A stretch of 64,000 bases of DNA from Trichobilharzia regenti. Its lineage: Eukaryota > Platyhelminthes > Trematoda > Strigeidida > Schistosomatidae. The stretch spans positions 23,419,452 to 23,483,451 of the forward strand of contig OX235267.1 in the NCBI GenBank assembly GCA_944472135.2. The letters are read 5' to 3'. A program made the translations under genes and the position numbers. The notes beneath the pieces were generated by a model. That model was not told the origin of the DNA and searched no databases. It was given only the letters and a program-made list of their open reading frames with translations. Numbering within the stretch: position 1 is the stretch's first letter; each line of letters opens with the position of its first letter. This document shows positions 470 to 36,101 of the stretch, piece by piece.

Positions 470-3400
470 ATGAACGGATTAATTCTAATTCTACACTTAC
501 TTGTAATTCTGTCATGCAACGTAGAAGGTAATTATTATTAGTAGAATTTAAGATGGGTTTGCATTTTGTTTTCATTTTATCTGTTTTAATCTCTGTTCAC
601 TACTGGGGAAACTTTGACTTAAAGTAACTTATTTCAAGGCATCTTTCATCTATAATACTTAAAAACAAAAAAAATTATTAAACAGTCATTTTACGATTAC
701 TTCGAAACTCTCAAACATCAGATTAGAATGACACTGTTGGGAATAAAGCACTGGAAAATCGACTATCGCTATGAACTGTTTATTACTGATTGAACTACTC
801 TTCGCCTTGAAAAACTAAGCTCGATGATAATCACGGCATAACCTTATATGTGTTGTATGCAACTTAAAGATGTCCACCCATTCATATAGAACATTCAACG
901 AAGGGTTACTCTTCTCAAGGATATCACTTTTAAGCTGTACAGTCGTATATACATATTAAATCTTCTTATCAATCAAAGGAGTGTTATTAAATATGTGTCA
1001 TTAGAATTGTAAGTTCCAGATAACTACAAAACTTTTCTAACCGTATCTGAAACTCAATGGAGAAACAACGGCAGAAATACTAAGAGGCCGACTGCCATTG
1101 ATGAAAACGTTCTGCACAGTTGAACTTTGGATCGATTTCTCTACAAAACTGGAGCTAGGTATGTCAGTTGTACTTATCATCTGGCGTTGAATCGTGTCAT
1201 TGAACAACTGCACTCACGATTTTATAAAGGTGTAAAGACATCTCCCTGTAGCTCGATTGTGAAACATTTAATCGACTCTAGAGACAAAGCGAACCAACAA
1301 ATCAACAACTAGGTCATCTACAGAATACGTGTAAAAATTCTTTAAATTGCAGAAGCAATGTCAGTTCACACGTTAATTCCTGAATTCTGCAGATAAAAGA
1401 AATTTGCTTAGTTACTACTAAGCCTACAATAGGTTTAATTTGTCTTAATATCAGATAGTTGGTTTTTAACTATATCATTTTTCCTCTCCCCGACCTTATT
1501 ACGTTTCTACTCCTTGAGAAGATGCTGATCTGAACTGTTTCAGTGTGAGTTTAGTTCTATCCGGTCCTGTCGACTGTATCACGTCAAGTAATTTACTTAT
1601 TTGGTTTTATTTTTTCATACCTGATTGAAGCTTTCTGGTGTTATGCAAGTGTTACGTAAAATTTACAACTCTAATGACACATCTTTGATAACATTCGTTT
1701 GATTGCTAAGATAATTTACTATGCATATGAGATTGTACAGCTTCAGAATGACATCGCTGAAAAGCGTAACTCATTCTTTATAACTTCATTATGGATAAGA
1801 TTTAATTTCGATAAATCATACTGTGTTATACAGTAATATTAACCGATGACCACGTTTCGAGCACAAACTATTGCTCATAATCATATCAAGTTACTCACAC
1901 AATATTTTCGCTTCGCAATTATTATTGTTCTCTGAGCTGGTTCGTTGTGCTTCTGGAAAACATCTTGCTCTGAAGATGCCCAGAAGGACAACGAAAGCTC
2001 CGCAACCAAACCAACCAGCTCAGAGAACACTATTAAGTGCAAATCATCCACCTGACCTACAACTCTTTTCTATTATTCCACATTTCCCTTCATTTATATA
2101 CATGTGTGAAATTGACTAGATATCTAGTCAATGAAGTTATAGTCTACCACACTGCCCAAGTTTTATGCCAATATCATTTATTATATTTCGTATTTGTTAT
2201 TAATTCGACATTATAACACTGACTGATTTATTAGGCATGTTTTAGCACTGAAATATTTTGAATAAATGCTCTTCTACAAGAACCATTTCACCAAAAAGTA
2301 TTTTCGTGAGTATATGCAAATAATCAATGAGCACTAAGAAGATAAATCTACTGAAAAATTAGGTTTCTCCTTAAATTTCTATGATCCTGTTAAATACATC
2401 CTTAAAGCTTTATCTATGTTTCTGTCGTGTACCGTCTACATAAAAGTGATTGTAACTCTCCTATTTAGGCACATCGGAAATCGTCGATTCAAAAGTTGAA
2501 GTCACTAAGATACTTTGTATTGTTGGCAGTTAAAAATCTTAAGATTAAAGGCTTCATATGCCATAAAGTGTCACTATCTCTTTTTGCTTGAATCAACCAT
2601 ATATAGTCAACTGTCAGAAGGAGTAATTTCAGTTAGAAATGACAATCGATGACTTATGAACTCTGTAGTTTCTCTCTGGCATGTACGGCGTATCCAATAA
2701 AAGCCAGTGTTCCTCAAGGTGCCGTCCTCTCCTCTTTTCTTTTTTCTTTCTTCCTTCACGACCTGCCTCATTTAAACTAAACTATCTTTGTCAAATATAC
2801 AGATGATCTGACTGTATCACTCACTGCTTATCACTTCCGAGTCTGACTGCTCCAAACTTAATAGCCTTCTGTTGGACATCAACAAGTGGTCCAAGTCAAG
2901 TGGTCTTATGATAAATCCTTCCAAATGTCAGGCAGTTAACTTTACTTTCAAGCATCGACGTGACTTACATGAACTAGTTAGTTCGCATGATGACTGTAGC
3001 ATAGATGGCACGGAAATTGAAACCAAATCAAGCATTAAATACCTTGGATTAGTTCTTTCCTCTGACCTTTCATGGTCATCCCACATCTTATCTATCTCTA
3101 AGAAAATGTTTCGTCTTACCTTCTACATTAAAAAGTTAAGACAATCAGGTATCAACCAACTTTTAGTTTTGCAATTTTTAAACCCCTGTATTTTACCTAT
3201 TGTACTCTATTGCTCTCCATTAATCTTTCCTGGGCTTCTCAAAAAAGACTATATCATATTACGAAGGGTATTAAATGCTGTGAGTAGGGCTTGTGGTCTG
3301 CCACTGCGTGAGCTCGCCAATACTATAGTTGAGAGACACATGAATTCCTGTACATTGTTCATCTTTCTGTGATTTTATGGTGTCACACTTTCTATCGTTT

Positions 3401-6381
3401 AATTATAACTTTGCTATTTTATTTTACTTGTTATTACTATTATTACTATAATTTTATACGTTATGCATATTTTTCTCCGTATTGCATACAGTAATTGCTG
3501 TGTAGCTGCTATAACAACGTTTTATTATTATTGTTATGTAATGTTTATTTTTAATTTTTTCGTAATTTTTGACTAAATTATATGCAATATTGTACTGAAT
3601 GCTGAAAATTCCTTGCTGTATCATTAGTACTGTTTTTGGAATAAAGCAAATTATTATTACTATTATTAGATACCGAAGAATTTAAAAGGTAGACACCTTC
3701 GCAATTTGCTTAGATCAGTAGGAGCTCTGTGCGCTGCAGAAACAATTCCAGCTACTATTGATATCCCTACAAATTCTGTGTTACTTCCTTTAATTTATCT
3801 GACATTCAGTAGATATAAATAATATAAAAAAAGATAATATAAATACACATTATCTTTAACTGATCTTTTTGTAATGCTATCTGTCGATATTTTTAACTCA
3901 GTGTGATATTTCCATTAACAATATTTCTTTAATTACTATGATCGTATGTATGTTGAGTGTGTCAGTGGTGCAGTCAACCACACGAAAAATACTGAGAGGT
4001 TCGATCCTTGGCCGACGCACTCCTAAACCTTACTTAACAAGAAAGTAAGCCAGATAAAAAGCGAAGATTGAGCGTGAGTCTAGCAACCCCACCTCGTAAA
4101 AATAAACCACTACTACTGAAACTTCAAAGTTCATAATTAGAAGCCCTATGTTCCAACTAGAGAACATGGGAATGAAATAAATAAATAGTAATAAATGTAA
4201 AACCTGGAGACAAATTTATCGAAAAGAATATTCTTTGTTCATTATTTAGTCTTTTAGACTTCTGCCCAGTTAAATTAATCAGTCAGTCCACGCAATGATT
4301 TTCAATCACGGAACGGTAATAAGGAATAACACCTGTTGAATTCTTGCAAGTATCATAACATCACCTACGATCACCGTTTCCGTACACTTACAAAACAGTC
4401 TACATAAGACTCTGACTACATTAAGTTTTTCCACTAACATATATTATAGCTTGACAAACTTAGGAATCTAAACTGTGCATTGCATCTGTGTTCGTTCTCG
4501 TCAACCGCCATCGAACAAACGAAATCGTCGTAATCTTTAGATATCGTTGAAGCTTATGTTCTAGGAGATGGCATTTCAAAAGAAACAGAAAATTCCCATC
4601 CAACAGGAAATAAAAAGACACCTAAACAAATAAAAACTCAGATACATTTAATATCCTCATTATCCCAGCTTGTTGTCTCTTTTCATTCCATCTCAAGCTT
4701 TTTCAATAATGAAGAAGTAGTACATTACAAATGATAAAACACTCCAGTGTTATTTATTATTTTAAGTGGTCACAGAAATTTGTTTTTCGTCAGCATCTTT
4801 AATTAATACAAATACATTCATGTCTGTTTTTAACATCCTAGTTCTTATTGTCAAGTTTCGTTGAATTATACGAAGCATATGGAAGCAAAATCTCTTGTTT
4901 TATTATTATTATTATTACTATTATTATTATATCCTTTAATTCCTAGAGGAACATAGGGCTTCAGCCACGCGTCACCATTGCCTTCGGTGTTCTGCCAACC
5001 TTCTCACCCCTCTCCAAGTCTTCTTACATGCTTTCATCTCCTCTTCACATGACCTCCTCCAAGTCACCCTTGCACCGACAACCAACTCGCCGCTTCCCTT
5101 TCGGGTTCCACTCGAGCGATGGCTTGTCTAGTGATGTCACTTGATGGTTTCCTCAGCGTATGGACAATCCACCTCCATTTCTTCCTGCCTCTCTTGTTTT
5201 AGGGGATAATAAGACTTCTAGTATATGTTTGAAAGCTGGAGTAGAAATTTAATGTATAACCCAGTCAATGTACTCAGATCCGCAACAGGAATTGAATCTC
5301 TAATTATAAAATAATAAGATTCAGTTTTAGGAAGTGGCAAATAAAAGAATTACTGCACAAAATGTTCTACTCAGTGACTTTAACAGGTTTTTAAGAGAAA
5401 TGTCGGAAAGAGTAGCATACTTGAGGAGTTCAAAGATCACTAAAAAAGTATGTTCGAAGCTAGCTTAGATCTTGCTGTCAACTTTCCTTTGATCACTCAT
5501 CTATAAAAAAGACTGGTGACATAGCAGCATCATCAGTACGTATATTGTTACCTGTTGAAAATGAGGTGTTACTAGATCACTCTTGCTACTTTAAAATGAT
5601 AAAAGTAAGTGATCATATATTACAGAAATTTTCACCATACTTAGTTCCAAAATATTACCTCTTCATATAGAATACAGCATTTTATGAAAGCTTTCTAATA
5701 GAATTTTCATGGTAATACAGATGTCATCCCCTGCTGTATTCAAAATCCACATATTTCCGAAGCTCATTCTTCATCTGTCGGAATAAAATGATTTTACTAC
5801 ACAAAGGTGAAATGAAAGATGAGATGCAAAACAGTCATGACATTTTGCTTGATGTAATGATTAGAGACAACATCTTAAAGTGATTACAAAAGGCTTTTCT
5901 GGTACTAGATAATCTCGTACAATCGAGATATTTTACAAATAATAAAGGTGTTTCGCAAAGAAATATTGAAGATGACACCTAGTCTAGTGTAAACACTTCA
6001 CTTAACAAAACTATTTGGATAACAAATGCTGAAATTAATTCATTTCCCATAAACATCTAAATCGAAGTGAATTAACTTCTCCCAAGTGGTAAGAAGTTTA
6101 ATTATACCTAATTTACACCTTAATAATGGTCAGTGAAATTATTTCAAATACAACCTAAAAACTGTTTTTTGATATTCTGTTTTATAACTTGATCCAAAAT
6201 ATTTTAAAAAAATATTAACAAATTGGCACTATTTTCTGTTTCAGGTAAGTGTGGTGAAGTAGGCGCTTTCTGTAGAAAGACAGTGGATACTCGTTGTTGT
6301 GGTGAATTATATTGTAAACTATCTAAACCTTTCCAAGGAAGATGTACAGATCCGAAACGTAGACATTCAACATCCTGGTAA
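470..6381 (+). CDS. Secreted knottin-like cysteine-rich peptide, gene 1 (two exons, 64 aa)
   Basis: Exon 1 is 470-527 and exon 2 is 6245-6381, joined across a 5.7 kb phase-1 intron (donor GGTAATT at 527, acceptor TTTCAG ending at 6244). Exon 1 gives 19 residues that look like a complete signal peptide (Met, short polar start, then a run of Leu/Ile/Val). Exon 2 gives a 44-residue mature part with six cysteines spaced C-x6-C-x7-CC-x4-C-x9-C, the classic inhibitor cystine-knot order, followed by a basic tail (KRRH) and TAA at 6379. The product should be exported. From memory, schistosomes have a cysteine-rich family called UPF0506 with this kind of framework; membership is an inference. It is the first of three similar genes in tandem, the other two having two knots. 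Function is unknown; the knot could serve as an effector, channel ligand or protease inhibitor. Splice sites are read from sequence only. Confidence 0.75.
529..1100. other. Gene 1 intron, mostly featureless
   Basis: No coding signal. At about 890-960 there is a weak match to the terminal repeat of the PLEs seen near 29.6 kb and 53.6 kb (a segment containing AAGCTGTACAGTCGTATATA). Confidence 0.3.
1100..1315 (+). mobile_element. PLE endonuclease fragment
   Basis: The frame 1127-1312 reads GARYVSCTY, then HSRFYKG, SSIVKHLIDS. This follows the order of the GIY-YIG endonuclease tail of Penelope-like elements (ARYIGRT ... W.. ... S.I.KHL..TGH). The YIG motif has decayed to YVS, so it is a dead fragment. 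Confidence 0.4.
1926..2029. repeat. Short foldback repeat
   Basis: The left end (TGTTCTCTGAGCTGGTT) pairs with the right end (AACCAGCTCAGAGAACA) around a 65-base centre. The right arm (GAAAGCTCCGCAACCAAACC) matches the right arm of the foldback at 24418-24661, so the two belong to one family. Confidence 0.5.
2030..2690. other. Gene 1 intron, no feature seen
   Basis: AT-rich sequence with only short random frames on both strands. Confidence 0.3.
2690..3670 (+). mobile_element. CR1-like non-LTR retrotransposon, 3' fragment (copy 1)
   Basis: Broken frames read VPQGAVLSSFLF (RT motif 4), KYTDDLTVSL (RT motif 5, YADD altered to YTDD), then 2872-3372 with GLMINPSKCQ, IKYLGLVLSSDLSWSSH and YIKKLRQSGI, the RT thumb region. 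It is 5' truncated. The 3' UTR (3541-3668, ending in GGAATAAAGCAAATTATTATTAC) is shared with the copy at 46-47 kb. It lies in the gene 1 intron. Confidence 0.8.
3958..4185 (+). mobile_element. tRNA-derived SINE, type 1 (decayed)
   Basis: A B-box-like GAGGTTCGATCCTTGG follows a weak A-box region (GTCAGTGGTGCAGTCAA). The body (AGCAACCCCACC, ACTGAAACTTCAAAG) and tail (AGCCCTATGTTCCAACTAG) match the SINEs at 31963, 33951, 38092 and 40138. Confidence 0.6.
4186..4894. other. Gene 1 intron, no feature seen
   Basis: No coding or repeat signal that I can name. Confidence 0.3.
4895..5215 (-). mobile_element. RTE-like retrotransposon, 3' end fragment
   Basis: Begins with a (TTA)n tract, then the complement of AGCCCTATGTTCCTCTAGGA, and encodes on the - strand the C-terminal signature WRRSCEEEMKACxxTW...LAENR, as in the copies at 13.4, 26.2 and 34.7 kb. 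Only about 300 bases remain. Confidence 0.7.
5216..6244. other. Gene 1 intron end, no feature seen
   Basis: No repeat or coding match seen; ends in the TTTCTGTTTCAG acceptor of knottin exon 2. Confidence 0.3.
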
Positions 6382-6456
6382 CACCAGTATCACATTTCTT
6401 TTCAAAAGAAGGAAAACAGTAAATTGAGACTATGAAGTGTAATCAATTACCTGAAA

Positions 6457-6462
6457 AATAAA
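6457..6462 (+). terminator. Poly(A) signal of knottin gene 1
   Basis: A canonical AATAAA lies about 75 bases after the TAA stop of gene 1, a normal distance for a flatworm 3' UTR. It supports 6245-6381 as a terminal exon. Confidence 0.55.
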
Positions 6463-6541
6463 ATTGTTTTAAAGATTTAAATTTCATTTTGACTGTATAA
6501 TATTGTTAATAACTCCAGCTAACTTGTTGTCAGTATTGCAT

Positions 6542-6895: not shown

Positions 6896-7099
6896 GCAGT
6901 TAAGAGACTAAATGAATGTTTTACTCAACAAATGCACGCATATTAATGTAATAAGCAATGGATGATTCACACCTGTTTCATGGGGCTGATAATGTCGGCT
7001 GTCTCCTTAAATCTCCGTAGGTCAATGAGGGAAGTTGAATGCCTGGCTCGATGTTAATTATACTTAAATGAGATCGATGGTGTTGCTACAGGAAGACCC

Positions 7100-9620: not shown

Positions 9621-9629
9621 AAAGACGGT

Positions 9630-9910: not shown

Positions 9911-9949
9911 AATGGGTAAGAAGTTCGGACATATAAAGATCTGTCTGTT

Positions 9950-15247: not shown

Positions 15248-18200
15248 ATGAAGTACAATTTTAATATGAAAAAATATGTACTGAGTGTGTTAATTTTTGT
15301 ATGTATTTCTACCTTTACAACTGCAGGTTAGTATTAATCTCTATAAGATGCTTTTTTAATGATTGTTATTGTTTCCTCGTGTTCCTAGTGGAACATAGGG
15401 CTTCAACTGCACGTCTCCACTTGCTTCTGTCTTCCTTCTGCTGTATATTTCACCTGCATTCATGTTTCAACTCCTCTTCACATGACCTCCTCCATGTCAC
15501 CCTGGCATTGGCATCCCACTAGCTGCTTCCCTTTCGGCCTGGTTCCACTCGAGCAATGGCCTGACGCGAGATGTCACCAACCGACCTCCTCAGTGAGTGT
15601 TCAATCCATCTCCACTTTCTCCTGCATATTTGTTGGTTGGCGATTAGTTCTTGTTTGGTTTGTTCCGATAGATTCTTGTTGGTGATTCTTTCCGACCATC
15701 TGATCTTCAGTATAGAGCGAAGACAGTTGTTGGTAAAGGTCCACAACAGGCTGTTGGAAATAATCTTTGTGACCCGCCAAGTTTCTGATCCGCGTAGAAG
15801 AACTGACTTTACGTTTGTATTGAAAATCCGAATTTTGTTGTTGATGCTGAGTTTATAAGATTTGCATCTCCATTATCTGCTAAGTAGATGTAATTTCGTC
15901 CTAAACTCATAATCTTCATCAAAATGCATAGACTCTCACGACTAAGGAATTTCAGGGGAGAAATCTCCTCGTTTTACTGAATCATATAGTTTCAACATTT
16001 AAGGTATTTGAACCCAAGTACTCAGTTGATTCCAGAAGCAAATATTGTATGTTTGAGTAGTAGTAGCAGACCTTTATCAACAACTGTCTTCGCTCTATAC
16101 TGAAGATCAGATGGCCGGGCCGGAAAGAATCACCAACAAGAAACTATGAGAACCAAGAAAACAAAACAAGAACCAATCGCCAACCAACAAATATGCAGGA
16201 GAAAGTGGAGATGGATTGGACACTCACTGAGGAGGTCGGTTGGAGACATTGCGCGTCAGACCATTGCTCGAGTGGAACCAGGCCGAAAGGGAAGCGGCGA
16301 TTGGGACGTCAGTGCCAGGGTGACATGGAGGAGATCGTGTGAAGAGGAGTTGAAACAGTATGGACTAACATGGATGCAGGTGAAAAGTACAGCAGAAGGA
16401 AGATAGAAGCAAGTGGAGACGTGCAGTTGAAGCCCTATGTTCCACTAGGAACTCAAAGGAACAATAACAATAATAATTCATTAATTACCGTGTAAAAAGA
16501 ATTTAAAGCTGTTATCACTGTTACGTATACATTAGGAGCCTCAAAATAAAGCAGGTAATACTCACTAGCTTACCCATCAGCTGAATTAGGTTAGACGTAT
16601 ATAATTAGTCCACTCCACTATACTTCGCAAAAATACATGCAATAGCAGAGAAACGTTATGATATTATAGCAAAGAAAGATTTATGATAGAAAATATTCAA
16701 TATAAAGTGCGAAAGGCGTTCCAGAATTCTGTTTTTATTTCTCAATGGTTATGGATTTTGCGTCAAACTGCCCGTGGGAGTGAGAAGATAAGAATAAGTT
16801 GGACTGATAAGTAGGCTATAGGAGATCTAGATTTTACACAGGGATGATTTGTATTTAATGTTAGACCAGGCAAAAACCAACAAACTGGCTGATGAAGCAG
16901 GAGGCGAAGACAGGACTCCAGGTGAACATAAATAAGACCACCACCACCGCAACCAGTCACCATCAACGGGAGAGATTCGACAGAGGTCACTTCCTGCCTT
17001 CACTTATCTAGGAAGCATCGTTTCAAGCACAGGGGGAACGGATGAAGACGTCAGAACCAGCCAGAATCGGAAATGCAAGATACGCCTTCATCAACCTTGC
17101 AACCAGTTTGAAAACCTTCTGCAATTAGCCAGCTTAAAGAACAAGTTTCGGATTCTCAACACCAATATCAAGTCACTTATTCTATGTGGGTCAGAGACAT
17201 GACGCATCACAAAGGGTAGATGTTTACCAACAGCTTCCTTCGCTGGCTCTATATTGAAGATCACATGGCCAGAGAAAATTAGTGATAAGGAACTCTGGCA
17301 GCAAACTAACCAAGAAGCTGTCGTTCAACAAATATACAGAAGAAAATAGAAGTGGATTGGGCATACGCTGAGGGGACTGTCGAATGACATCGTGGGCCAG
17401 ACCATCGTCCGAGTTAAATCCGTTTGAGAAATGGAGAGTGAGGCATTCAAGGGTGACGTGGAGGAGATCAGAGATTGTGGGCAATTACCGACCCAGCTGA
17501 ACAGGAGGGCAGAAAATAGAACAGGGTGAAGATATGTTGTTGAAGTCCTATATTCCACTTGGAACCCGCAGGGAACAATAATAATACTTTTATGTAAATT
17601 CATCGAATAACTATCATTCTTTTAAATCAAATCGAGAGTATATAATGAGCAGATAAGCCATTGGTACGTTAGGCATAAATTTTAAAGTGAGGAATAGTAT
17701 CTGAATGAAAATTAATCTGACGTTCGGTAGTGACTGACTGCAGTTCTCGTGAAAAGTCGTGACAAGTGAGCTCCATCCAGTCGGGAATGAGGGCGAATAC
17801 ACGCCGATTACACTGGGTGGTGGTTGCGCTAAAACCATGAATTAGTAGAGGTTGGAAGTAAGAGGTTGATTTGAAGCAGACTGGATCTCATTGGCTGAAT
17901 GGTCTACAAACTCGCCTTGTTATCTTAAGGCCTCAGGTTCGAACTCCAGTGACAGCATAATGCCAATGAGTCCCAAACTAGGACGGAACAACCGTTCAGC
18001 ATTCCCTGATTTCCAGTGGTTCTCTAACCAATATCAATCCGTGGTCAAATTTGGAAAATGAATGATCAAATGTCGGTGTTATTATCCAAAACTGTAATAT
18101 TTACAATAACCTAAGCTGTTATATCACAATGAAGACATTACCGATGCACCTAACACGGAATGTGATCCAGACAACTACAGTTTTGTTCCCTCCCTATTTA

Positions 18201-21200
18201 TAGCAATAAACGATTTTATTTTTTTATTACAGCTTGATTCCACACCGCATTTTTGGTACAAGTATGGAATTTTCAGCATGTGATACCGGTAGCCCAAATC
18301 TTGCCGGCCGACCATAGATATCAAGTGTGCGTCGGCAGGGTATCGAACCTCGAACCATGTGCATGGTCGGCGAGAGTCATAACCGCTGTGCCACCGACGC
18401 ACATATCAAGTGATCGATGATATACTTCACTACAGTTGAACAGAAATTTTCAAAGACACATTCTATGCTATAAAATTATGCATGCCATCTATTCTGTTTA
18501 AACACATATTAGTACACAGTGGATAATTCATTAGTTAGGAAACTGACAGTTTATTAAGTAAATCTGGCTGATTTATCCTTTTGAGAAAGACGAAATTAAA
18601 TCTTAAAAGATGAACAGGTAATCTGCTAATAGAATAGTAAATACTTGAGTAACAACACTTCAGGGTTCACTGATAGCCTTCAGTTATGGGCAAGCTATCA
18701 TATCTTTGAAAATGAAGTACGAAAACCTGAACTGATTTACTTTGGTCACTCACTTATAGTGCACTGAATAGTTAGTTAATGGAAAACTACTTGAAAACTA
18801 CTACTTGACAAATAATCAGTTGTCGGTAATTTTAAAGTTGGTTTGTTTAAAACAACACAAGTATGAATTCAGTATACACTTTGATTTCCTTCCCCACTAG
18901 TTTTACATTCCTAACGAATCATTAGTGACATTATTATCGGTTACTTGAGTTCCAAGTGGAGCATATAGTTTCAGCAACACGTATCCATTTTGACTCCTTT
19001 CTCCGTTATCATTATAAATTGTACACATGACTCCGCCCAAGCTTTCTGGTTGATTGTCTCAAGTGTTGTAGATCTCCACACTAATTTCACAGTAATATAC
19101 GTTTGTCTTGAACTGCCGATCCAATGTGTGGCTGGATAGCTTTCGTATCCTCACCCATGCTGCCTGCTTGTAATTGGAAGGCTACTCCTTATGTCAGGTG
19201 ACAACCTCCTCGCACTGATGGTAATTCATGCATGTTGTTGTTTGTCGAGTGCCTTCATCATCTCTGCCATCTGTGTGTTCAGTCAAAGGCTTTTTCTCAC
19301 CAACTCCTCCACCAGCTTGTTGATTATTGCATGTTTGTCTCATATTTTGTGTCACACATGGCATAAATCATTTGCGAAATTCAGACTTTTTGGAATACAT
19401 TGTCAGTATAACGTATACCGACTCGTTCTCTCAAATCCCACTCTCTACGACATCATGTAGTCGGCCACAATCAGGAACATCATCGTGGTTGATAGTGGGC
19501 AGCCTTGTCTTACTACTGTATATACTTCAAACGCTTCATTCAACTTTCTGTTGTGAATCATCTACCATGTGTCACCGTCGTATAACTGTTGAATGAGGCT
19601 TATAAATATTTGTAGTACCCTATTCCGTTGTATTAAAGCAGTTGTCAGATTACGTCGAGGTTCATACTGTCCAAGGCATTTTCAGAGTTTTTCTTTGATT
19701 CTGCGCTCTGTTCGATGATAATGCTTAATGTTTCTGTATGACCGGCATGTGATTTGGTTCGCGCATATCCAGTATGTTACGAATGATGATGATTCTGCAT
19801 AACATTTTGCCTGGGATGGATAGTAACATGCTTCTGCGTCAGTTCTTGCAAATGCATTGAGTCTCCCTTCTTTGAGAGTGTGCCAAGGTAGTCTTTTCCT
19901 CCAATCATCAGGTACCTTGCCTTCCCTTCACACTTTCTGCTATAGTAACATGATTATGTCCACCAAGGTCCCTGGATCTGTTTTCAGCATTCCCGGATGA
20001 TTCCATACGGGATTGCTGGTCTCTAGGGTGGTTTCCAGTAAATTCATAGCCTTCAAGACTTCTGTTTTTATAGGAGGAGTTGGTGTTTGTTGACAGTTCT
20101 GCGTTTGTTGGTGGTATTTCCAGAGGTGTTGCGGGTGGCGACCGATTCAAGAGTATTTCAAAAGTTATCAGCCTATTGCTTCCTCTCCTACACCTCTTTG
20201 GTAATTTCGTTTACTTCACCACCTCTTATTAGTTTCATGTGCGTTGATCTCATCTCGAATAGCTACCTGGTTATTGAATTTAGTGTTCTGAGGTCTATCT
20301 TACTTGCAGCCTGTTATTCGTCACCATTCAATGTTTTTTAAAAGCGTCTTTTGTCTTCTCTGGTACCCTCACTCCTTTGTTCAGTCCTCTGTAGATTGTA
20401 CTCAGTATTTTGTTTAGTTTTCAGGATTTCATCATGAGCTGACATTAGTTAGAGAACCATTGGAAAACCTGGGAGTACTGGACAGCTGTTTCGTCCTAGT
20501 TTGGGACTCTTCAGCAGTACGCACCCACCGGGATTCGAACCCAGGACCTTCCGGTTACAAGGCGAGCTCGTATACCATTAAGCCACTGGGACCCGATCCA
20601 ATGGTCCTTGAATTCTAACTTCTGCCAGTTCACGCGCTATGTCGTGAACTGGCAGAAGTTAGAATTCAAGGACCATTGGATCGGGTCCCAGTGGCTTAAT
20701 GGTATACGAGCTCGCCTTGTAACCGGAAGGTCCTGGGTTCGAATCCCGGTGGGTGCGTACTGCTGAAGAGTCCCAAACTAGGACGAAACAGCTGTCCAGT
20801 ACTCCCAGGTTTTCCAATGGTTCTCTAACTAATGTCAGCTCATGATGAAATCCTGAAATCAATCAAATCCCTACAAACCAACATTTTGTTTAGTTATTTA
20901 TCACTGCGGTGATTCTTCTGCTTCTCTATCCCTTTTTTGTTCTATCAGTCTCCAGATGTTCATAGTGAGCCATTCTTTATCTTGCCTCCTCTTCCTTTCT
21001 AAGACATCTATTCAGGTCCCTTTGCATGTCCTTTTCAGAGAGTTCCACTGTTCTTCCTACAGGTTTCTCCAGTGATGTTTCTTATTGTCGCTGACTTTTT
21101 TCTGATGACTACAGTAAACTTGATATTCATGGTTGCGTGCCTCAATTTCGGAGTGTTAAACTTGAGTTGTTGTCTATGTTCGATTACTCTGAAGGTTTTC

Positions 21201-22810
21201 AATTTGATCTATAAGGTTCTTTGCACATGATAGTTGTCTGAGTCCACTTCTGCTGCTCCTGTAGATTTTGCCTCTAACAGGCTGCGTCTTCACTTTCTTA
21301 AGATTGAGATGAAGCCTACCGGATTTCTGGAGTGTCTATCTGGTGAAACCTACATCACTTTGTGGATAAAACATTGCCTCCATTTATCAAATCATAAAAG
21401 GGTTGGTATCTGTAAACAGTCCTCTGTTGTCATCCATTTCACCAACAGCCTTTTCACCCATGATTAGTTTTTGATACTGTTGGAGACATTCTGATGGCCA
21501 CAACCTCCGTGAGTTCGTGGTTGTCGTTTGGATGACTACAGTAGACAATAGACTCCTCAGTTTACGATTTGGAAAGTCTACTTCTATTCCATCTCCTCTC
21601 ACAAACTTCTAAATTTCTTTATTTTATATAAATATACTTATTTCATGTGCTCCATGAGTTGCCTTGCCAACCAGCCTCAAACATGGAGTGGACACTTCAT
21701 CAAGTCTCTGTGCCCATTTTTACTCTCACTGATTAAAGACAAATCGGCTAACTGGCTTCCTAACAGCTTCCACTCACTGGTGTCATCTGTTCTCCCCGAA
21801 TCCAGCAGAGAGTAAGTTTATTTTTCCGGTGTTTTGAAGTTTCACTAGCGATGATATTATTTCAATTAATTCAAGCTATTAATCCTCTTAGCCTGCACAT
21901 AAAAAGAGGTAGACATATCAACGCAAAACCCTACACAAGATTACATTAGGTCATATTTTTATACCCTATATTAGCATATATAAACAGAACATATGTAGGA
22001 ATGGAAAAAACCTTAGTTTAAGGCGAAAAACAATAATTTAGTAAAATAAATCATAAGGATGTTCAGCCTATCACATTAATGACGAGAATACAGCAAAATA
22101 TTATTGTGTTCTGTAAATCTTTGTCATAAGCTGAAATTAGTTGGAGAACGATAGGATAACCGAGGAGTACTTGACAGTTATTTCAGCTTAGTTCATGGCT
22201 CGTCAATAGTACGCACCCGCCTGGGTTCAAACCAAGGACCTCCAGATTATGAGGCGAGGTTGTAGACCATCCAACCACTGGGACCCGATCCAATGGCCAA
22301 CCAATGAATCCCAACTCCTGCGATATTTAGTGCAACCACCAGCCAATGGTACAGCAGAGTAACTATCCTCTCGCCTAACTTGGTGGACCCCACTGGTTAC
22401 AACTCCCCCCTAGAACCCCAGTGGATATGTATTGCCGAGGAGCCCTAATCTAAGATGAAATAGCTGCTCAGCACTCCTTGGTTCTCCTACGGTTCTCTAA
22501 CTGATTTCACTTCTTGATCAAACCTGTAGTTAATCGAATTCTGCAAACCAGCACTTGATAGTTATATTTGTTATTCCTTTGGCTTAAGTAATCATTATGA
22601 CCATAACTTTCATTGAATTTTTGAAATTCTTTAGATGAATGCAGAATATTAACAGCGCCCTGTTCACCATTTAAATGCTGTTCACCTTACTTATGCGAAA
22701 TGTCATCGCTTAGTAATGGAGTTTGTGTAATGTGTTATAGACCAGGACATTTATGTTATAAAGATGACCATTGTTGTCGTAAGAAGTGTAAATGTTTTGT
22801 ATGCATTTAA
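15248..22810 (+). CDS. Secreted double-knottin cysteine-rich peptide, gene 2 (two exons, 84 aa)
   Basis: Exon 1 (15248-15326) encodes 26 residues: a short basic start followed by a hydrophobic core, a good signal peptide. A second in-frame Met at 15266 (followed by KK) is an equally plausible start. The phase-1 donor GGTTAGT at 326/327 joins an acceptor TTTAG ending at 22634; exon 2 is 22635-22810 and ends in TAA. The mature part (58 residues) has 13 cysteines: C-x6-C-x4-CC-x4-C-x9-C, then x2, then C-x6-C-x5-CC-x3-C-x4-C, with one extra Cys inside the last x4 gap. It is therefore two knots back to back, joined by only two residues. The second knot closely matches that of gene 3 (both have GHLCYK followed by HCC). 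The 7.3 kb intron is full of retrotransposon debris. Same likely role as gene 1: an exported, disulfide-rich peptide of unknown target. Confidence 0.78.
15370..15860 (-). mobile_element. RTE-like family B fragment, left arm of an inverted pair
   Basis: Complement of AGCCCTATGTTCCACTAGGAAC, then the - strand signatures RRKWRWIEHSLRRSVGDI and AIARVEPGRKG. It lies 44 bases inside the gene 2 intron and is inverted relative to the copy at 16070-16475. Confidence 0.8.
16070..16475 (+). mobile_element. RTE-like family B fragment, right arm of an inverted pair
   Basis: Reads SANLRSILKIRWP-like, then ICRRKWRWIGHSLRRSVGDIA, RVTWRRSCEEELKQYGLTWMQV, STAEGR, followed by the common GAAGCCCTATGTTCCACTAG end and an (AAC/AAT)n tail. 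Confidence 0.8.
16476..16845. other. Gene 2 intron, no feature seen
   Basis: No repeat or coding match recognised. Confidence 0.3.
16846..17590 (+). mobile_element. RTE-like family B fragment, strongly decayed
   Basis: The DNA keeps the order of the family (GGAAGCATCGTTTCAAGCAC, GCCAGAATCGGAAA, AACACCAATATCAAGTCA, GAAGATCACATGGCC, GGGCATACGCTGAGG, AGTCCTATATTCCACTTGGAAC) but with many indels and stops. It is older than the copies at 13.4, 26.2 and 34.7 kb. Confidence 0.7.
17700..18065 (+). mobile_element. S-alpha-type SINE with hammerhead-like core
   Basis: A tRNA-like head (TTGGCTGAATGGTC as A-box, CAGGTTCGAACTCCAG as B-box) is followed by AATGAGTCCCAAACTAGGACGGAAC at about 17972-17996. 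This is the hammerhead order: CUGAUGA-like box, helix II GTCCC/GGAC, then GAAA altered to GGAAC. It then has the family end (GGTTCTCTAACCAATATC). Confidence 0.65.
18215..18405 (-). mobile_element. tRNA-derived SINE, type 2
   Basis: On the - strand: a GTGCGTCGGTGGCACAGCGG head with A-box, then GGTTCGATACCC as B-box, a distinct body (GGTATCACATGCTGAAAATT) and an A-rich tail. Near-identical in layout to 41020-41222. Confidence 0.7.
18406..18930. other. Gene 2 intron, no feature seen
   Basis: AT-rich, no named motif. Confidence 0.3.
20407..20893. repeat. Perfect SINE palindrome with target-site duplication
   Basis: Arms 20419-20634 and 20643-20858 are exact reverse complements (216 bases each, no mismatch seen) around an 8-base loop (CGCTATGT). 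An 11-base direct repeat ATTTTGTTTAG flanks the insert (20407-20417 and 20883-20893). The right arm reads as a forward S-alpha SINE: A-box AGTGGCTTAATGG, B-box GGGTTCGAATCCC, and a hammerhead-like core CTGAAGAGTCCC...GGACGAAAC. The 24-base 3' tail (20859-20882) is present only on the right. Confidence 0.92.
20760..20791 (+). ncRNA. Degenerate hammerhead ribozyme core
   Basis: CTGAAGA (consensus CTGATGA), a helix II GTCCC...GGAC with a short loop, and GAAAC in the correct order. The T-to-A change in the first box removes a residue needed in known hammerheads, so it is probably inactive. The mirror copy is on the - strand at 20486-20517. Confidence 0.5.
21611..22125. other. Gene 2 intron, no feature seen
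   Basis: No coding or repeat match recognised. Confidence 0.3.
22126..22560. mobile_element. Inverted S-alpha-type SINE pair, decayed
   Basis: The left half reads as the SINE on the - strand (complement of GGGTTCAAACC, GCACCC, GAGAACG). The right half reads forward (CCGAGGAGCCCTAATCTAAGATGAAATAG, GGTTCTCTAACTGATTTCA, then tail GAATTCTGCAAACC). It ends about 75 bases before the gene 2 exon 2 acceptor and looks like an older relative of the perfect palindrome at 20.4 kb. Confidence 0.6.
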
Positions 22811-27560: not shown

Positions 27561-27569
27561 TCTAGGGAT

Positions 27570-28172: not shown

Positions 28173-31100
28173 ATGCCAGAATATTTTTCCATTATTCGTC
28201 TTCTCATTTTACTATACGGGCTAAGCTTTCATACAGTAGGTAAGTTTGAAATGTTTGCTCAACATGTCACTGTTTTGCCTACTAAATGATAATTCCATTA
28301 GTTGATTTAGCACTCCATTTAAGATAAAGCAGATTGTAGTATCTATTTGGTAATTAATTTTTTCAATGTGCTTACAATGTTTGCCTTGTTCTGCATGGAC
28401 TAGTGATTGGATAGGAATGAAATTTTTTACTCTATTTCTTACTCTAAGGTTTAAAATTCATGAAATATACTCAGTGAAGAGTGTAGGCATCCATTTACCT
28501 ATCTTTTCAATGTAGCTGTCTTTATTATGCATATATTCCGTCGGTCGGGATTCTGTGAGCACTCTACTGTTGTGCCACCGACGCAAACATACATGTATGT
28601 ATGTATGTAAGGAGACAAATGAGCACCAGGTATAATAAAGAGAAACTGACAACAGTTAAAAAGAAACAACTATTCCTAAAATTACAATTTAACGGGGACG
28701 TAGCTAGTGGATTATCGAGAGTAGTAAAACGGACTTACTCCGCCGCCACCCTTTGTTTGTCATTTTCCAACCGACCAATTATGCTTGCTCATGCGAAAGA
28801 CAAGCTGCCTAACTGTGCCACTTCTAGGTGTAGCTACAAACTTAGTCGCTCCTGTGGAGATGGCTGGTTATATAGGGCGAACAACTAGACAGGTCAAAAA
28901 ACGTACTAATGAGCATCTTCCTTCATGATTCTATTTTGATTCATTTGATTGATTGCGGCCACCAAATGGACAGGAGTAGTGCCTTCAAAGTTATCTAACG
29001 CATTCCATCGAGCCTTTCGAACGGAATTCGAATCCGCCTTTTACAAATAGCCGAATTTACGGGAATTCGACAAAACACTCCTAGTCTTTGAATACAGAAG
29101 AAGTTTGTTCCACGTTTGTCTCTCCCTTGGCCTACGTAAATTCTAATCAAAACCCTACCACCTTTTCTTATTTTCGATTTTCTTCGTACTTTTATGATAT
29201 TTATTTAAACTCTGATTATCTGTCCACTTCAACTTCATTATTACTTAAATTTTCACATTTGACCTAATTTATTTATTGAATTGTCTGCATATACACATAT
29301 TACTACCTTCGATGGTCTTATCGCCACCTGCATAAACCGAATTATCATTATTTTGTCATCATTATAATCATCGTTATTAATGACATTCAAAACATTTACC
29401 ATATTATTATTACTATTATTATTATTATTGGATCCACAAACTCACCGTCATTAGTTAAGATTTTTATAGTTTAAATCTGTGTAAATTAGAGTTAAGCCTG
29501 AAGAAGATAAAATTGGAAACAATTTTGTTCGCTTATACGTCTTGTTCTAATATTAATAATGGAATTATTTAGAGAAAACAAAACGCGTAGATCAGCGAAT
29601 AGTCTCTTTTCGTCAGCGAATTCATTTTCTTAGCTGTACAATCGCATATATATATATATATATATTATTTTGTATGTATGTGTACATTAAGTTTGTCAAA
29701 AAAAATACAATCGGTTATGGTTATTTTAACTAAACAGGTGAAGATTGGTAATACAAGTCAAGAAAATTAGGTGTTAATGAAATTAGGGTAGTAACAAAGG
29801 TGATGAGTTGTCACAAACAGTTGTTAAAAGAAGTTATGTAATGATAATATGAATAGTTTGATGAGTGAGTTTTACTTAGGATGCACATAGAAACAAAGTA
29901 GATAATACGAAATTACGTAAGAGATCTAAGTGAATACAAGAATTATAAGCAATTAAAGAACAGGCGAAGAAACAAAATTAAGTCATCAAAATAAAAAACT
30001 CAAAACAAATCAAAACATTGTTACCATGAGAGTAGAAGTGGTTGAGTAATCTTCTTTTGTATGCACAGCTCCAGTTTTTCCGTGTGAATGGCCAGAGCTT
30101 CAGCGATACAAAGAAGACGAAACCGAATTGCCTTTGATAGGTTATTCTTGACTCTGTAGATTACTTTGAAGGAGGCGTTTCTTGAAATGGAATGATCAGT
30201 GTTAACCAAGTGTTCAATTATCGCACTCCTTATAGCACCACTATTGCCTTTTCGCAACCATGCTGGACAGTGTTCTTGAATCCTCTTGGACAGGATGCGC
30301 GTCGAACGACCGATGTACCTGGCTCCACCTGCTATTCATATTATTATTACATAACTTCTTTTAACAACTGTTTGTGACAACTCATCACCTTTGTTACTAC
30401 CCTAATTTCATTAACGCCTAATTTTCTTGACTTGTATTACCAACCTTCACCTGTTCAGTCAAAATAATCTTAACCAATTGTAATTTTGTTTGACAAACTT
30501 AATGTACACATACATACAATATATATATATATATATATATATTTGCGAGTGTACAGCTAAGAAAATGAATTCGCCGAAAACAGACTCTTCGCTGATCTAC
30601 GTGTTTTGTTTTCATTAATGCCTGGATGGGGATTATCCATGAATATATTTAAAGATATATGAATGGATAAAACATTGATCAGTGACATAACTGAAGAGTC
30701 AGTCCTGCGAAATACGAATACCTCTCTCTCTCTCCCTGAATTATGTTATCTGTATAGCTAAATACTTTCGAAATTGATAGGAATGCCTCAAGTGATATTT
30801 CTGAGCAGCGTTTAAGGTGGTTAGATAAAGGAGTAGTAAAGTCAATCAGGACCTCTATACTGATAGATCTAGTGGATACAGATCATAGCACACCGATGAT
30901 AATTCAGCCTTTACAATTCTATACAAGGCGCCAGATGGCTTCTGTAGGATTTTACGCCTTCGATTCGCAATCATAACTGAAGCACTTGCCTTAAAAGTTT
31001 TCCAACCAATCTCTGCGGTCGGAGAAAGTTTGTTCAATTGCCCTTACTCCAAAGGTCTTCAACCACAACCTTGAATTGTTATCGCTGCCGATGGCACGAG

Positions 31101-34100
31101 ATAATTGTAAATACTATTTTTCTTTCTTATCAGCATCACACTGCGCTATAGTTGCATACTATTTTTATCTTAGTTTCACAATTTATTATTATTATCTCTA
31201 CTGTTATCCACCATTAAATCACATCCCTGAACTTTGATTCTATTGGATTATATTGATCCATATTGTTTCAAATGCTTTCGACTAATATTTTATTGCAAAA
31301 ATATTCATTCAGACATCTATAAAACACATCCCCATAAGTAGCTCAAACAAAGAGTCAGAAACTTCATGGATTGATGATACCAGGTTTCCATTTGACCACT
31401 ACTACTGACTGACTGACTGCTTTCAACACAGAGCTTTGCACATATGTGCGGCAGTTCAAGTCGTCCCACTCCATGTAGCACACAAAGCAAGAGAAAAAAG
31501 TAGAAAGAAATGGAAAATAGAGACAGTAAACAGGGATATGACGCAAAAAGAATAGTAATATCGAATAACAATGTTTTATTGGATACTATAAGTCACAAGG
31601 AGTGGATGCATCTGCACAAGCCATTGGGAACGATTTTGAGCCATATCACCAATTGTCTCCAGCCATTGGTGTTTACCGTTCCAAGGATCCCGACTAACCA
31701 GGATATCTACACATTCCTACGAGACTGGCTTAAGGTAACTGTTGTGGATTTCATTGACTGATGAAGCCATGTTTTGGTTTGACCACCACTGGCTCTTTTT
31801 TAGCATGTCCCTATTTCAGTCGGCTAACACTGCCCGTTGTCGAGGAAGGCGATAGCTAGGCATACGTAACACACGTCCTGACCATCTCAGTCGGTATAAC
31901 TTCACAACCTTATCTATTGATTTCCCCTCCTTACTTAGCACTCGACGCCTAACCTCAATATTTTTTTCTTTCCTTCACGTTCCCCAGTGGAACATAGGGC
32001 TCCAAGCTAGTGGCTTGAAGTTTCTGAAGCAGTGTTTATTTTACAGGATGAGGTGGCTAGCCTCATGCCCAACCTTTCCTCTTTACCAACCTTATTTCTG
32101 GCTTAGCGAGGTAAAGGAGTGCGTCGGCCAGGGATCGAACCCCGGACCATGTGCACGGTCGGGGAGCGTCCTAATCGCTATGCCACCTCAATATTGCTCA
32201 CCCTATTACACCTAACACACACGAAAGATAGAACGCAGACAGTTGTGATCAAAGACAGACAGCCTGGTTGCATGTTCCAATTTCAATGGTCATGTCTCAC
32301 AGCCATAAAGGAGTACGGAGCGAACTGCTGAGCAGTACGCGCGTCCTTTGGTAGACAGCCAGATATCATGTCCGCGCCAGAGACGGCGTGGACTGACATA
32401 TGCGACACGAGCGTTCTGACTAGGAAAAGATGATTGTCTGTAAAAAACTGTAGAAGACGAACACCGTTGTCTGTTCGTCGGCAGGGAACTCCATATGTAC
32501 CACCTACATACTTCTCAGTCTGGCCTAACTTACCTACTTGGTCATTGAAGTCACCTCCTAAAACAACTGAGCGTTTTGCTTTTTGCAGCAAATTAGACAG
32601 TTTCTGGTACAGGTCATCCTTTAGTTCATCGGAACTGACTAACTCTTTTTCCAACCTAATTCTTTGTCAGCTAACACAGCTCGATGATAGAGGCGAGGGC
32701 TTGAGCAACATAGGTCCTAACCATATCAATCAGTTCACCTTGACAACCTCAAAATTACACGCCATATCGCGACACTTAATACAGGAAATAGAACGTAAAT
32801 ATCTGTGGTCAGAGACAGCTAGCCTCTTAACATCTTCCTTTCTTAATGACTGATGAAACTCCCCAAATAAGTGAAATGGTCAACAAGCAAAACTACTTAA
32901 CTCCTGAGCTTCAAACGGAGCTTCAATCCTGAAGCATTCTCATATATTTGCCAGCTGAGAACAGTATGCCTATAGTATATCTATGATGAAATTAGACGAA
33001 AATGACGACAATAGATATCCCTGACGGACATCACTGGTTGTCATCACTTCATATGACAACTCTTCATAGACTCTGGAAGACCAGTTAGGCTTTAGGCCAG
33101 GAAGAGTGTGAATTGATCATATCTTCACTTATCGAGACATTCTTGATCACATGCATCCTCACCGACGTCTAATACTTGCCATATTTCTTGAAGTGAAGGC
33201 GTCATTTGACCCTAACCGATGAGTACTAACTTCACGTGGTGGTTGCGCTTGCATATGGTAATGGCCTAAAGAGCTACCCAGACTAAAATGAATGTTCCTA
33301 CAGGTCTTACCATGCCAAAAACGTCTTTTGGGTAGCGGTTGGACTAAATCAGTCACCATCATAGTGTAAGTCATCCCCACTATGTTGAAGGTCTGGAAAC
33401 GAAGTTGTACTCCTGGAGAATAAGCCTATAGTAACAGTAAGTTGTTTCCTTCGGACGACATGAACAGACTAAAGTTAAAAGAGCTTTTGCTTCGAACGGA
33501 TACGCTAGTCATCAAGGGGCTAGTCAAATTTCATTTCTCAATAATCACTGGAACACACAGTTTAGTAAGTCTTACCCGTATATCATGGAAGTGTGTAGAA
33601 CTTTACACTCGTGTTACTTTTTGGTTTGCATTGATCAGCTTCGAATTCTTGTTATAGTTAGTCCAAAAGCAACATTTTACAAATGAAATATTTTTCACAG
33701 AAAAGAGATCTACTTAGAAAACTTTTAAGTAGTTTATATTTTCTGATTCAATTTACACAGCATGGATTGCGTATGATGATAACAAATTGCAAAATAAACG
33801 ACGAAAGGACTAACAAGAATACTGAAACTGTGCTTTTATGAAAGATGCGATAGATGAATTTTACAGTCTTCATGTTTTGGGTGCAAAGCTAAATATTCAC
33901 TGGCAGGCATTGATATCACATGTTGAATTTTCCGTTCCAAAGGCAGCGTCGGTGGTATAGCGGTTAGGACACTCGCCGACCATGGACATGGCCGGCGCAC
34001 TCCTTTACCTCGCTAAGCCAGAAATAAGGTTGGTAAAGAGGAAAGGTTGGGCATGAGGCTAGCCACCTCATCCTGTAAAATAAACACTGCTTCAGAAACT

Positions 34101-36101
34101 TCAAGCCACTAGCTTGGAGCCCTATGTTCCACTGGGGAACGTAAAGGAAAAAAATAGGCAGCTACTAATACTTAAAGACGGATTATTTTTACAGGATCGA
34201 TCAGAAGCTGACATCAGTTAGAGAACCCTTGGAAAGCCTGGAAGTACTGTACAGCTGTTTCGTCCTAGATTGGGACTCGTCGTCAGGACGCACGCACCGG
34301 GGTTCGAACCCAGCACCTCCCGGTTACAAGGCGAGCTCGTAGCCCATCCAGACCCGGTCCAATGGTCTATAAATTCTTACTTCTGCCAATTCGTGATATA
34401 CATATAAGGCGCAACCGCCAGCCAGTGTGATAGGCAAGTAAATGTCCTCTTCCCTGACTATGTCGACACCAACGGTTATAACTTCTCACAAGAACCCCAG
34501 GTAACCTCCGGTATAGGGCCAGTCCCAACAGATTAATTATCAAATGTAACCAATCAAATTCCTGCAAACGATTAATTTTTAGTAGAAAGTCAATGTAAAC
34601 AGATTTTTTATGAAACATTCAGTTTCAGAATTCATCAGTAGTAACCGCTACTACAGTAGATTGGATAATTCGACAAACAACGCGCAATGAGGAAACAGGC
34701 ATAAAATGGACTCACACAAAACAAGAACTTGGAGGATCTGGACTTCGCCGATGACATATATATGTCTGATTTCCCACAAACTGGAAGATATGCAAGCGAA
34801 AATCAACAAGCTGACCAAAGAAGAAGCATCAAAGATAGGACTTCAAGTGAACATAGATAAAACAGAGGTGATGAAGATTCCTGGCCAACACCAACATCAA
34901 CAACAACAGACAACAATCAGCCAGCATAAATGGGAGGAACCTGAAAGAAACAACCTCCTTCACTTACCCACCTACCTGGGAAGCATCGTTTCAACTACAG
35001 ACGGAACTGACGAGGATATCAAAGCTAGAATCGGTAAAGCAAAACAAGCTTTCATTACTCTCAAATCTGTGTGGAGGTCAACATCACTCAGCATCAAAAA
35101 TAAGATCCGGATCTTCAACTCCAATGTGAAGTCAGTGCTACTATACGGAAACAAACAGGCAGGAAGAAATGGAGATGGATTGTCCATACGCTGAGGAAAC
35201 AAAACATCAAGTGACATCACTAGACAAGCCATCGCTCGAGTGGAACCCGAAAGGAAAGCGGCGAGTGGGTCGTCAGTGTGAGGGTGACTTGGAGGAGGTC
35301 ATGTGAAGAGGAGATGAAAGCATGTGGGCAGACTTGGAGCGGGGTGAAAAAGTTGGCAGAAAACCGAAGGCAATGGAGACGCGCAGCTGAAGCCCTATGT
35401 TCCTCTAGGAATTAAAGGACATAATAATAATAATAATAATAACAATAATAATATGAGTATCCACTTCACAACCGACAAATGGTAAGTCTCGCAGGCCACC
35501 ACTTTTCATAACAACTTCAGGATGCATGATAGAAATCCGAACTTGCCTAATATGACTTGAGTGACCGGATTATATCATAAGTCATCATACCACAGAAGTA
35601 GGTAGTAAACTAGAATATACAAACCCTCATGCAACAACTGTTTTTCAGAATCCATATGTTTTAGCTTGAATACGGTTGCAGAGAAGGTAAGAAAATATGA
35701 TGAGTGAAAGGCTCCTTATCCATTCTTTAATGAATTTTCCGTAGATATGTGAACAACATTCCCTAACTTGGAATTAGCAGTGTGTGTTACCCTGATTCTT
35801 GATAATTATATTAATCCTTATAAAGTTCTATTTGATTTTATTTAATTCAATACACTCAAGATATAAAAGCTACCAATTAACGAAGAAAACTTGTATGCTT
35901 TCTGAAATGTATTTAGGTTCTTGCAAACAAATCTCTGAAACGTGTACATTTCATCCATACAACCAGTGCTGTGGAAGATTAGTGTGTGAATGGTTACACG
36001 GGCCTGAAGGTAACTGTATGCCATGCTTTCGTAGAGGCCACTTATGTTACAAGAATGAACATTGTTGTCTCAAGCGTTGCCATTACTTTGTATGTGTCTA
36101 A
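28173..36101 (+). CDS. Secreted double-knottin cysteine-rich peptide, gene 3 (two exons, 83 aa)
   Basis: Exon 1 (28173-28239) encodes 22 residues ending in a hydrophobic stretch that fits a signal peptide. Its donor is a strong G|GTAAGT, phase 1. Exon 2 (35917-36101) follows an ATTTAG acceptor and ends in TAA. The mature part has 12 cysteines in two knots: C-x6-C-x7-CC-x4-C-x9-C, x2, C-x6-C-x5-CC-x3-C-x4-C. The first knot has exactly the spacing of the single knot of gene 1, and the second exactly that of gene 2, which ties the three genes together. The 7.7 kb intron holds PLE, RTE and SINE fragments. A reading frame that runs into exon 2 from 35799 is an intron read-through, not the true start. 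Secretion is inferred; the target is unknown. Confidence 0.78.
28525..28605 (-). mobile_element. tRNA-derived SINE head fragment
   Basis: Complement of TGCGTCGGTGGCACAAC and the following TAGAGTGCTCACAG, the start of the SINE head family; body missing. A (TATG)n run is attached. Confidence 0.5.
28630..29130 (+). mobile_element. PLE 3' fragment with GIY-YIG nuclease
   Basis: FNGDVASGLSRVVKRTYSAA, FSNRPIMLAHAKDKLPNC and CSY, then in the next frame GYIGRTTRQVKKRTNEHLP (28855-28920): an intact YIG and the first catalytic Arg region of PLE endonucleases. The end (LRIRLLQIAEF, IQKKF) is decayed. It lies in the gene 3 intron. Confidence 0.75.
29574..30613. repeat. 283-bp inverted repeat flanking a PLE remnant
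   Basis: Left arm 29574-29856 and right arm 30332-30613 are near-perfect reverse complements (GAAAACAAAACGCGTAGATC against GATCTACGTGTTTTGTTTTC at the outer ends; GAATAG against CTATTC at the inner ends), with only scattered changes and different (AT)n lengths. The 475-base centre carries a - strand PLE nuclease end. The arms resemble the PLE terminal-repeat segments near 0.9 and 53.6 kb. Confidence 0.88.
30015..30331 (-). mobile_element. PLE nuclease 3' fragment between inverted arms
   Basis: On the - strand: ARYIGRSTRILSKRIQEHCPAW, then RKGNSGAIRSAIIEHLVNTDH and RFRLLCIAEALAIHTEKLELC. This is an intact-looking GIY-YIG nuclease end that starts exactly at the inner edge of the right arm, so the RT part was lost when the arm joined. 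Confidence 0.8.
30840..31075 (+). mobile_element. PLE nuclease 3' fragment
   Basis: Reads LYKAPDGFCRILRLRFAIITE and ALALKVFQP, the RLR..I.EALAI..L.P end of PLE nucleases, with a frameshift before it (HLIDLVDTDHS). Confidence 0.55.
31320..33400 (-). mobile_element. RTE-like family A, scrambled copy
   Basis: Same 3' end as the 9.95-12.17 kb element (shared GTGTGCTACATGGAGTGGGA on the - strand), a C-terminal part, a jump at about 32410 to an endonuclease piece (32654-32410: VLGGDFNDQVGKLG, RTDNGVRLLQFF), and then RT pieces (FRPGRV-like, FLEVKASFDP-like) to 33230. The order differs from a full element, so it is rearranged. A SINE with its own target duplication is nested at 31963-32184. Confidence 0.75.
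31952..32195 (-). mobile_element. tRNA-derived SINE, type 1, with 11-bp target duplication
   Basis: The 11-base repeat ACCTCAATATT flanks the insert (31952-31962 and 32185-32195). On the - strand: GGCATAGCGATTAGGACGC head, GGGGTTCGATCCC B-box, body with CCTTTACCTCGCTAAGCCAG, and end CCTATGTTCCACTGGGGAAC followed by an A-rich tail. The uninterrupted target sequence is visible in the related RTE copy at about 10472-10496. Confidence 0.88.
33401..33945. other. Gene 3 intron, no feature seen
   Basis: Short random frames only. Confidence 0.3.
33951..34165 (+). mobile_element. tRNA-derived SINE, type 1
   Basis: Head CGTCGGTGGTATAGCGGTTAG, body CCTTTACCTCGCTAAGCCAG, end CCTATGTTCCACTGGGGAAC plus A-run. 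The B-box segment is deleted (GGCCGGCGCACTCC follows directly). AGGCAGC occurs on both sides and may be part of a target duplication. Confidence 0.8.
34195..34565 (-). mobile_element. S-alpha-type SINE with hammerhead-like core
   Basis: On the - strand: GCTACGAGCTCGCCTTGTAA, B-box GGGTTCGAACCCC, then GACGAGTCCCAATCTAGGACGAAAC at about 34245-34269. The box upstream has GACGA where CTGATGA is expected. The unit begins on the - strand with a segment resembling the complement of the family tail. Confidence 0.7.
34645..35450 (+). mobile_element. RTE-like family B, 3' fragment (copy 3)
   Basis: Frame 34706-35194 with LEDMQAKINKLTKEE, GLQVNIDKTEVMKI, YLGSIVSTTDGTDEDIKARIG, SVLLYG, then a deletion to the RRKWRW region and WRRSCEEEMKACGQTW; (AAT)n tail. 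It shares its 5' start (CAGTAGATTGGATAAT) with the copy at 13.37 kb. Confidence 0.85.
35451..35916. other. Gene 3 intron end, no feature seen
   Basis: Ends with the ATTTAG acceptor of knottin exon 2. Nothing else recognised. Confidence 0.3.

Follow-up and report, generated by a model that had tools for sequence, protein, structure and literature searches.

Three predicted two-exon genes of the UPF0506 knottin-like family in tandem in Trichobilharzia regenti

A 64,000-nucleotide stretch of the genome of the bird schistosome Trichobilharzia regenti (contig OX235267.1, positions 23,419,452 to 23,483,451; hereafter the window) carries on its + strand three pairs of short exons, each pair separated by a very long intron, which had been read from the letters alone as a tandem cluster of secreted knottin-like genes (gene 1, 470-6381; gene 2, 15248-22810; gene 3, 28173-36101). 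Exons so small and so far apart raise the question of whether they form genes at all and, if they do, to which family they belong and how they are related to each other. The three are very probably real, new members of a known flatworm family, UPF0506, with at least one of them already annotated, and we consider it likely that they represent three old tandem paralogues of that family, each composed of two exons.

Family membership and gene structure

The mature exons of all three genes score above the cut-off of the Pfam UPF0506 profile (PF11703; 23.2 bits; scores in Table 1), as the proposed knottin-type assignment had led one to expect. The match extends over profile positions 1-58 of 59 in genes 2 and 3 and over positions 1-34 of 59 in gene 1; the first exons of genes 2 and 3 match no Pfam family. 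Rows below the Pfam cut-offs were also returned for gene 1 (Toxin_7, E 0.11, 13.2 against 27 bits) and for gene 3 (Conotoxin_I2, E 0.07, 13.7 against 27 bits; Dickkopf_N, E 0.13, 13 against 25 bits), all of them so far under their cut-offs that they were set aside as reflecting the general look of small cysteine-rich peptides.

The mature exon of gene 2 matches one protein among 5.8 billion, an 84-residue UniRef entry of T. regenti named 'UPF0506 domain-containing protein' (here P0001). Residues 1-26 and 28-84 of P0001 are identical to the products of the two gene 2 exons, and the split codon accounts for the Asp at residue 27; no difference was found, so that P0001 is either gene 2 or an identical copy of it. 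The identity places the window in T. regenti or a closely allied species, in keeping with the flatworm origin expected of a UPF0506 member. Because both exon products are matched, public annotation agrees with the two-exon model of gene 2 and with its 7.3 kb intron. The suggestion that the cluster might be unannotated therefore fails for gene 2, whose long, repeat-bearing intron did not keep it from annotation. The mature exon of gene 3 has no match among database proteins of 33-105 residues, and a profile combining P0001 with the gene 3 and gene 1 mature exons returned only P0001 from the protein database. The absence of Schistosoma members from that result means little, because the search detects only relatives that share exact five-residue words.

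The micro-exon genes (MEG) of schistosomes carry internal micro-exons between the signal exon and the last exon. P0001 leaves no residue for an internal micro-exon in gene 2, and assignment of gene 2 to this class was rejected.

The design claimed for the cluster, namely a signal-peptide-like first exon, a phase-1 intron of 5.7-7.7 kb and a single cysteine-rich exon, is present in each of the three genes, and the coordinates and splice sites originally proposed were recovered without change, every intron running from GT to AG in phase 1 (Table 1). In each gene a single residue separates the split codon from the first cysteine, and the mature exon codes for 44, 57 and 60 residues past the split codon in genes 1, 2 and 3, respectively. 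The best 10-residue Kyte-Doolittle means of the first exons are 3.35, 3.37 and 2.62 in the same order, and exon 1 of gene 1 is the sole hydrophobic one of the two ATG-to-phase-1-donor candidates upstream of the gene 1 mature exon. The claim of a nearby AATAAA holds for genes 1 and 3, where the signal lies 76 and 72 bases past the stop, and is weak for gene 2, where the distance is 244 bases. The two-exon structure of gene 2 is thus supported by public annotation; that of genes 1 and 3 is predicted from their splice sites and reading frames.

Table 1. Positions of the exons and introns of the three genes in the window
Feature	Position	Strand	Basis
Gene 1 exon 1, signal-peptide-like, 19 codons + 1 base	470..527	+	ATG 470, GT donor 528
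Gene 1 intron, 5717 bases, phase 1	528..6244	+	GT..AG
Gene 1 mature exon, single predicted six-Cys knot and basic tail	6245..6381 (stop 6379-6381)	+	UPF0506, 24.1 bits
Gene 2 exon 1, signal-peptide-like, 26 codons + 1 base	15248..15326	+	Identical to P0001 residues 1-26
Gene 2 intron, 7308 bases, phase 1, with inverted hammerhead-bearing repeat pair	15327..22634	+	GT..AG; RF00163 twice
Gene 2 mature exon, two-knot UPF0506 domain, 13 Cys	22635..22810	+	UPF0506, 35.6 bits; identical to P0001 residues 28-84
Gene 3 exon 1, signal-peptide-like, 22 codons + 1 base	28173..28239	+	Sole ATG-to-phase-1-donor candidate in the region at that donor score
Gene 3 intron, 7677 bases, phase 1, retroelement remnants	28240..35916	+	GT..AG
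Gene 3 mature exon, two-knot UPF0506 domain, 12 Cys	35917..36101	+	UPF0506, 25.8 bits; loops equal the Schistocephalus solidus motif

A reverse-transcriptase remnant lies at 2812-3372 in the intron of gene 1 (RVT_1, E 1.1e-05, under the Pfam cut-off), and DUF6451 was detected in an open reading frame (ORF) at 34691-35194 in that of gene 3, which also holds repeats that recur in other introns and in spacers. In the intron of gene 2, each arm of the inverted repeat pair (20414-20846) bears a type I hammerhead ribozyme (RF00163, 54.1 bits each), and a third, weaker one is found on the - strand of the gene 3 intron (34244-34289; 36.4 bits, cut-off 34). The hammerhead-bearing repeats are probably schistosome hammerhead elements resembling short interspersed elements (SINEs).

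Cysteine frame, chance controls and structure models

Inhibitor cystine knot (ICK) peptides have the frame C-x-C-x-CC-x-C-x-C, in which the disulfides join cysteines 1-4, 2-5 and 3-6. This six-cysteine frame occurs as a first unit in all three genes and again as a second unit in genes 2 and 3. Counted as loop lengths between successive cysteines, with 0 for an adjacent pair, the series is 6,7,0,4,9 in gene 1, 6,4,0,4,9,2,6,5,0,3,1,2 in gene 2 and 6,7,0,4,9,2,6,5,0,3,4 in gene 3. The shared spacings of the original prediction (x6, CC, x4 and x9 in all genes; x2, x6, x5, CC, x3 and x4 in genes 2 and 3) are present as given, except that the last x4 loop of gene 2 is interrupted by a thirteenth cysteine.

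A loose regular expression for the first-knot spacing has exactly three matches in the six frames of the window, all at these genes, and is absent from a set of 100 Markov sequences (first-order, 64 kb); because of this difference the pattern is regarded as lying beyond chance. A fourth convincing copy was not found when a three-gene profile was run against the 2300 ORFs of at least 18 residues in the window, the next best having E 0.19 (the profile includes the three genes, whose own scores in it are not evidence). ATG-to-phase-1-donor candidates number 32 in the window, 16 per strand, and a hydrophobicity of 2.4 is passed by the three first exons only, although the thresholds were chosen after the exons had been seen. 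The strongly hydrophobic candidates amount to four ATGs at three donors, all on the + strand and all at these genes; among 40 second-order Markov sequences (64 kb, one strand), such hydrophobic donors number 0.25 on average and 2 at most. It might be argued that the exons are short cysteine-containing ORFs that never form genes, given that the gene models were read from sequence and that P0001 could itself be a prediction. With three Pfam matches out of three, P0001 for gene 2 and the random-sequence controls all opposed to it, this explanation is hardly credible.

Prediction of the fold was approached with AlphaFold models of genes 2 and 3, in which pLDDT is 69-83 for blocks within the initial 30 residues. 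These models, which are of middling confidence, suggest that the first half is knottin-like. Of the Foldseek rows, classed by eye from their titles, roughly half of 34 in the case of gene 2 and roughly 30 of 43 in that of gene 3 are cystine-knot peptides, and these also account for most of the VIA matches listed for both genes. The first Foldseek match for gene 2, and the fifth for gene 3, is phi-Xibalbin3 (PDB 7rz3), titled a double ICK, with E values of 0.33 and 1.2 over 32 and 33 aligned columns; the top match for gene 3 is asteropsin B (E 0.27). At the level of sequence, the gene 2 mature exon matches no PDB entry at E 10, whereas gene 3 matches only a 34-residue venom peptide (E 0.28) and the profile the same peptide (E 0.16) and Wrightide R1 (E 1.1), all at chance level.

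An alternative for the two-knot members, in place of a double knottin, is a Dickkopf/prokineticin-like (colipase-type) fold, with which they would mimic ligands of host receptors. Dkk1 is the first match of gene 2 by VIA-align and appears at row 22 of the Foldseek results for gene 3 (E 3.5); it is not among the 50 VIA matches listed for gene 3. We regard this fold as very unlikely, and a pair of knottin-type units is proposed for genes 2 and 3.

Kinship among the three genes

Outside the aligned cysteines, genes 2 and 3 are identical in 13 of 45 columns, which none of 20000 shuffles reaches. The corresponding values for gene 1 are 4 of 35 columns against gene 2 (reached by 2623 of 20000 shuffles) and 5 of 38 against gene 3 (reached by 1276 of 20000). 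The common ancestry originally proposed for the three is consequently upheld for genes 2 and 3 by their residues, whereas gene 1 shows no sequence likeness outside its cysteines, and its kinship rests upon adjacency, the Pfam match, cysteine spacing, and the phase and position of its intron. Where genes 2 and 3 share a residue, the codon is identical in 15 of 25 cases, a figure that is uninformative, many of these residues being cysteines, which have two codons.

The likeness of genes 2 and 3 is distributed unevenly. In the second knot 10 of 20 columns outside the cysteines are identical, a value reached by none of 20000 shuffles, whereas in the first knot the figure is 3 of 25, which 4544 of 20000 shuffles reach; the contrast gives a Fisher p of 0.008, for a division into knots that was picked after the alignment had been seen. 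As judged from these alignments, the second knot is kept between the two genes and the first has diverged to chance level.

By blastn, neither the mature-exon stretches nor the upstream flanks match one another at E 0.001, and the matches listed among introns, spacers and upstream stretches resemble repeats that are scattered over the window. The duplications look old for this reason. Shared introns were considered as a sign of recent duplication and rejected, as the matches listed could not be distinguished from window repeats.

The shorter product of gene 1 could indicate that only genes 2 and 3 are live and that gene 1 is decaying or truncated, its second knot having been lost. Consistent with this, gene 1 covers little more than the first half of the UPF0506 profile, its product would end in a basic tail, and the window yielded no second-knot exon beyond the two in genes 2 and 3. 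However, the frame of gene 1 is open from acceptor to stop, its splice sites are intact, its first exon is hydrophobic, its six cysteines stand in the right frame and an AATAAA follows the stop; nor was a second-knot remnant seen by eye in the three frames of approximately 320 bases downstream of that stop. Decay of gene 1 is judged unlikely.

Several observations tell against the interpretation of the cluster as three old UPF0506 paralogues with knottin-type products. P0001, as noted, may be a gene prediction, and the exon pairing and annotation of gene 1 are predicted and unconfirmed. The case for gene 1 is also the weaker one, as it is unlike genes 2 and 3 outside the cysteines. The best models of genes 2 and 3 have mean pLDDT values of 69 and 73, the other four models of each set reach 36-50 and 34-64, and neither gene's model has a Foldseek match at E ≤0.001. 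Finally, neither UPF0506 nor knottin is found by term search in the main text of the paper on the T. regenti transcriptome (PMC4749378). The only unusual features of the cluster are that gene 1 has a single knot and that the first and second knots differ in conservation.

Relatives, possible roles and neighbouring sequences

UPF0506 is described as a family without defined function in a report on the tapeworm Schistocephalus solidus, in which the knottin-fold protein A0A183TDP7 is recorded as detected in four of five secretomes and in no proteomes (PMC8400842). The cysteine motif printed there for A0A183TDP7 equals the loop series of gene 3 in 11 of 11 gaps, a likeness of loop lengths; gene 1 corresponds to its first five gaps, as a single-knot form, while gene 2 differs from it in the second loop and by the extra cysteine. 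In other reports, the listed cercaria-enriched genes of S. japonicum include one UPF0506 gene, at a fold change of 15.1 (PMC5223471), another shows reduced promoter accessibility after knock-down of a long non-coding RNA (lncRNA) in worms (PMC10878521), and a member in Opisthorchis viverrini is given as down-regulated when the worms come from diabetic hamsters (PMC11396942).

An outward role is suggested by the presence of the tapeworm relative in secretomes and by the cercarial enrichment in S. japonicum. Under this proposal, the precursor of each gene would enter the secretory path, exon 1 providing the signal peptide, which would be cut near the exon border, and exon 2 the whole mature peptide. 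Each six-cysteine unit would then form a disulfide knot of the knottin type, giving two knots in the products of genes 2 and 3 and one in that of gene 1, and a small, protease-resistant peptide might be released at the worm-host interface, where it could bind an extracellular host protein via its loops, without enzyme action. Secretion, knot pairing, stage, target and a host effector role are all inferred in this scheme. A further elaboration, in which the cluster would supply bivalent and monovalent ligands, the conserved second knot serving as an anchor, the diverged first knot changing the target and gene 1 being the one-knot form, is speculative and decidedly unlikely.

A serious rival to the host-interface proposal is that the peptides act inside the worm, in development, reproduction, egg or gland secretion or antimicrobial defence. 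The S. japonicum promoter that responds to lncRNA knock-down (PMC10878521) and the antimicrobial knottins (tachystatins) among the structural neighbours would fit such a use, against which stand the secretome release of the tapeworm relative (PMC8400842) and the enrichment of one S. japonicum member in cercariae (PMC5223471); on this evidence an internal role is a distinct possibility. UPF0506 has hardly been studied, and a tandem set that includes a one-knot member, in a bird schistosome that invades nerves, offers good material for an initial functional test.

Beyond the cluster, the - strand carries two exosome RRP4-like ORFs between 36532 and 44966, one with KH_6 (36532-37164) and the other with ECR1_N and RRP4_S1 (44538-44966), matched in pieces under the Pfam cut-off, the nearer lying approximately 430 bases past the stop of gene 3 on the opposite strand. 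Between them, and on the opposite strand to them, a + strand ORF (37460-37903) matches the last part of a RhoGAP domain (26.4 bits against a cut-off of 24.5). Further along the + strand, Pao/BEL-type ORFs occupy 55799-59463, with Peptidase_A17, RVT_1 and an integrase zinc domain at 55799-58579 and DUF5641 at 58465-59463. Reverse transcriptase ORFs at 61521-62474 on the + strand and 10744-12174 on the - strand (RVT_1, 100.8 and 109.2 bits) probably belong to retroelements lacking long terminal repeats (non-LTR).
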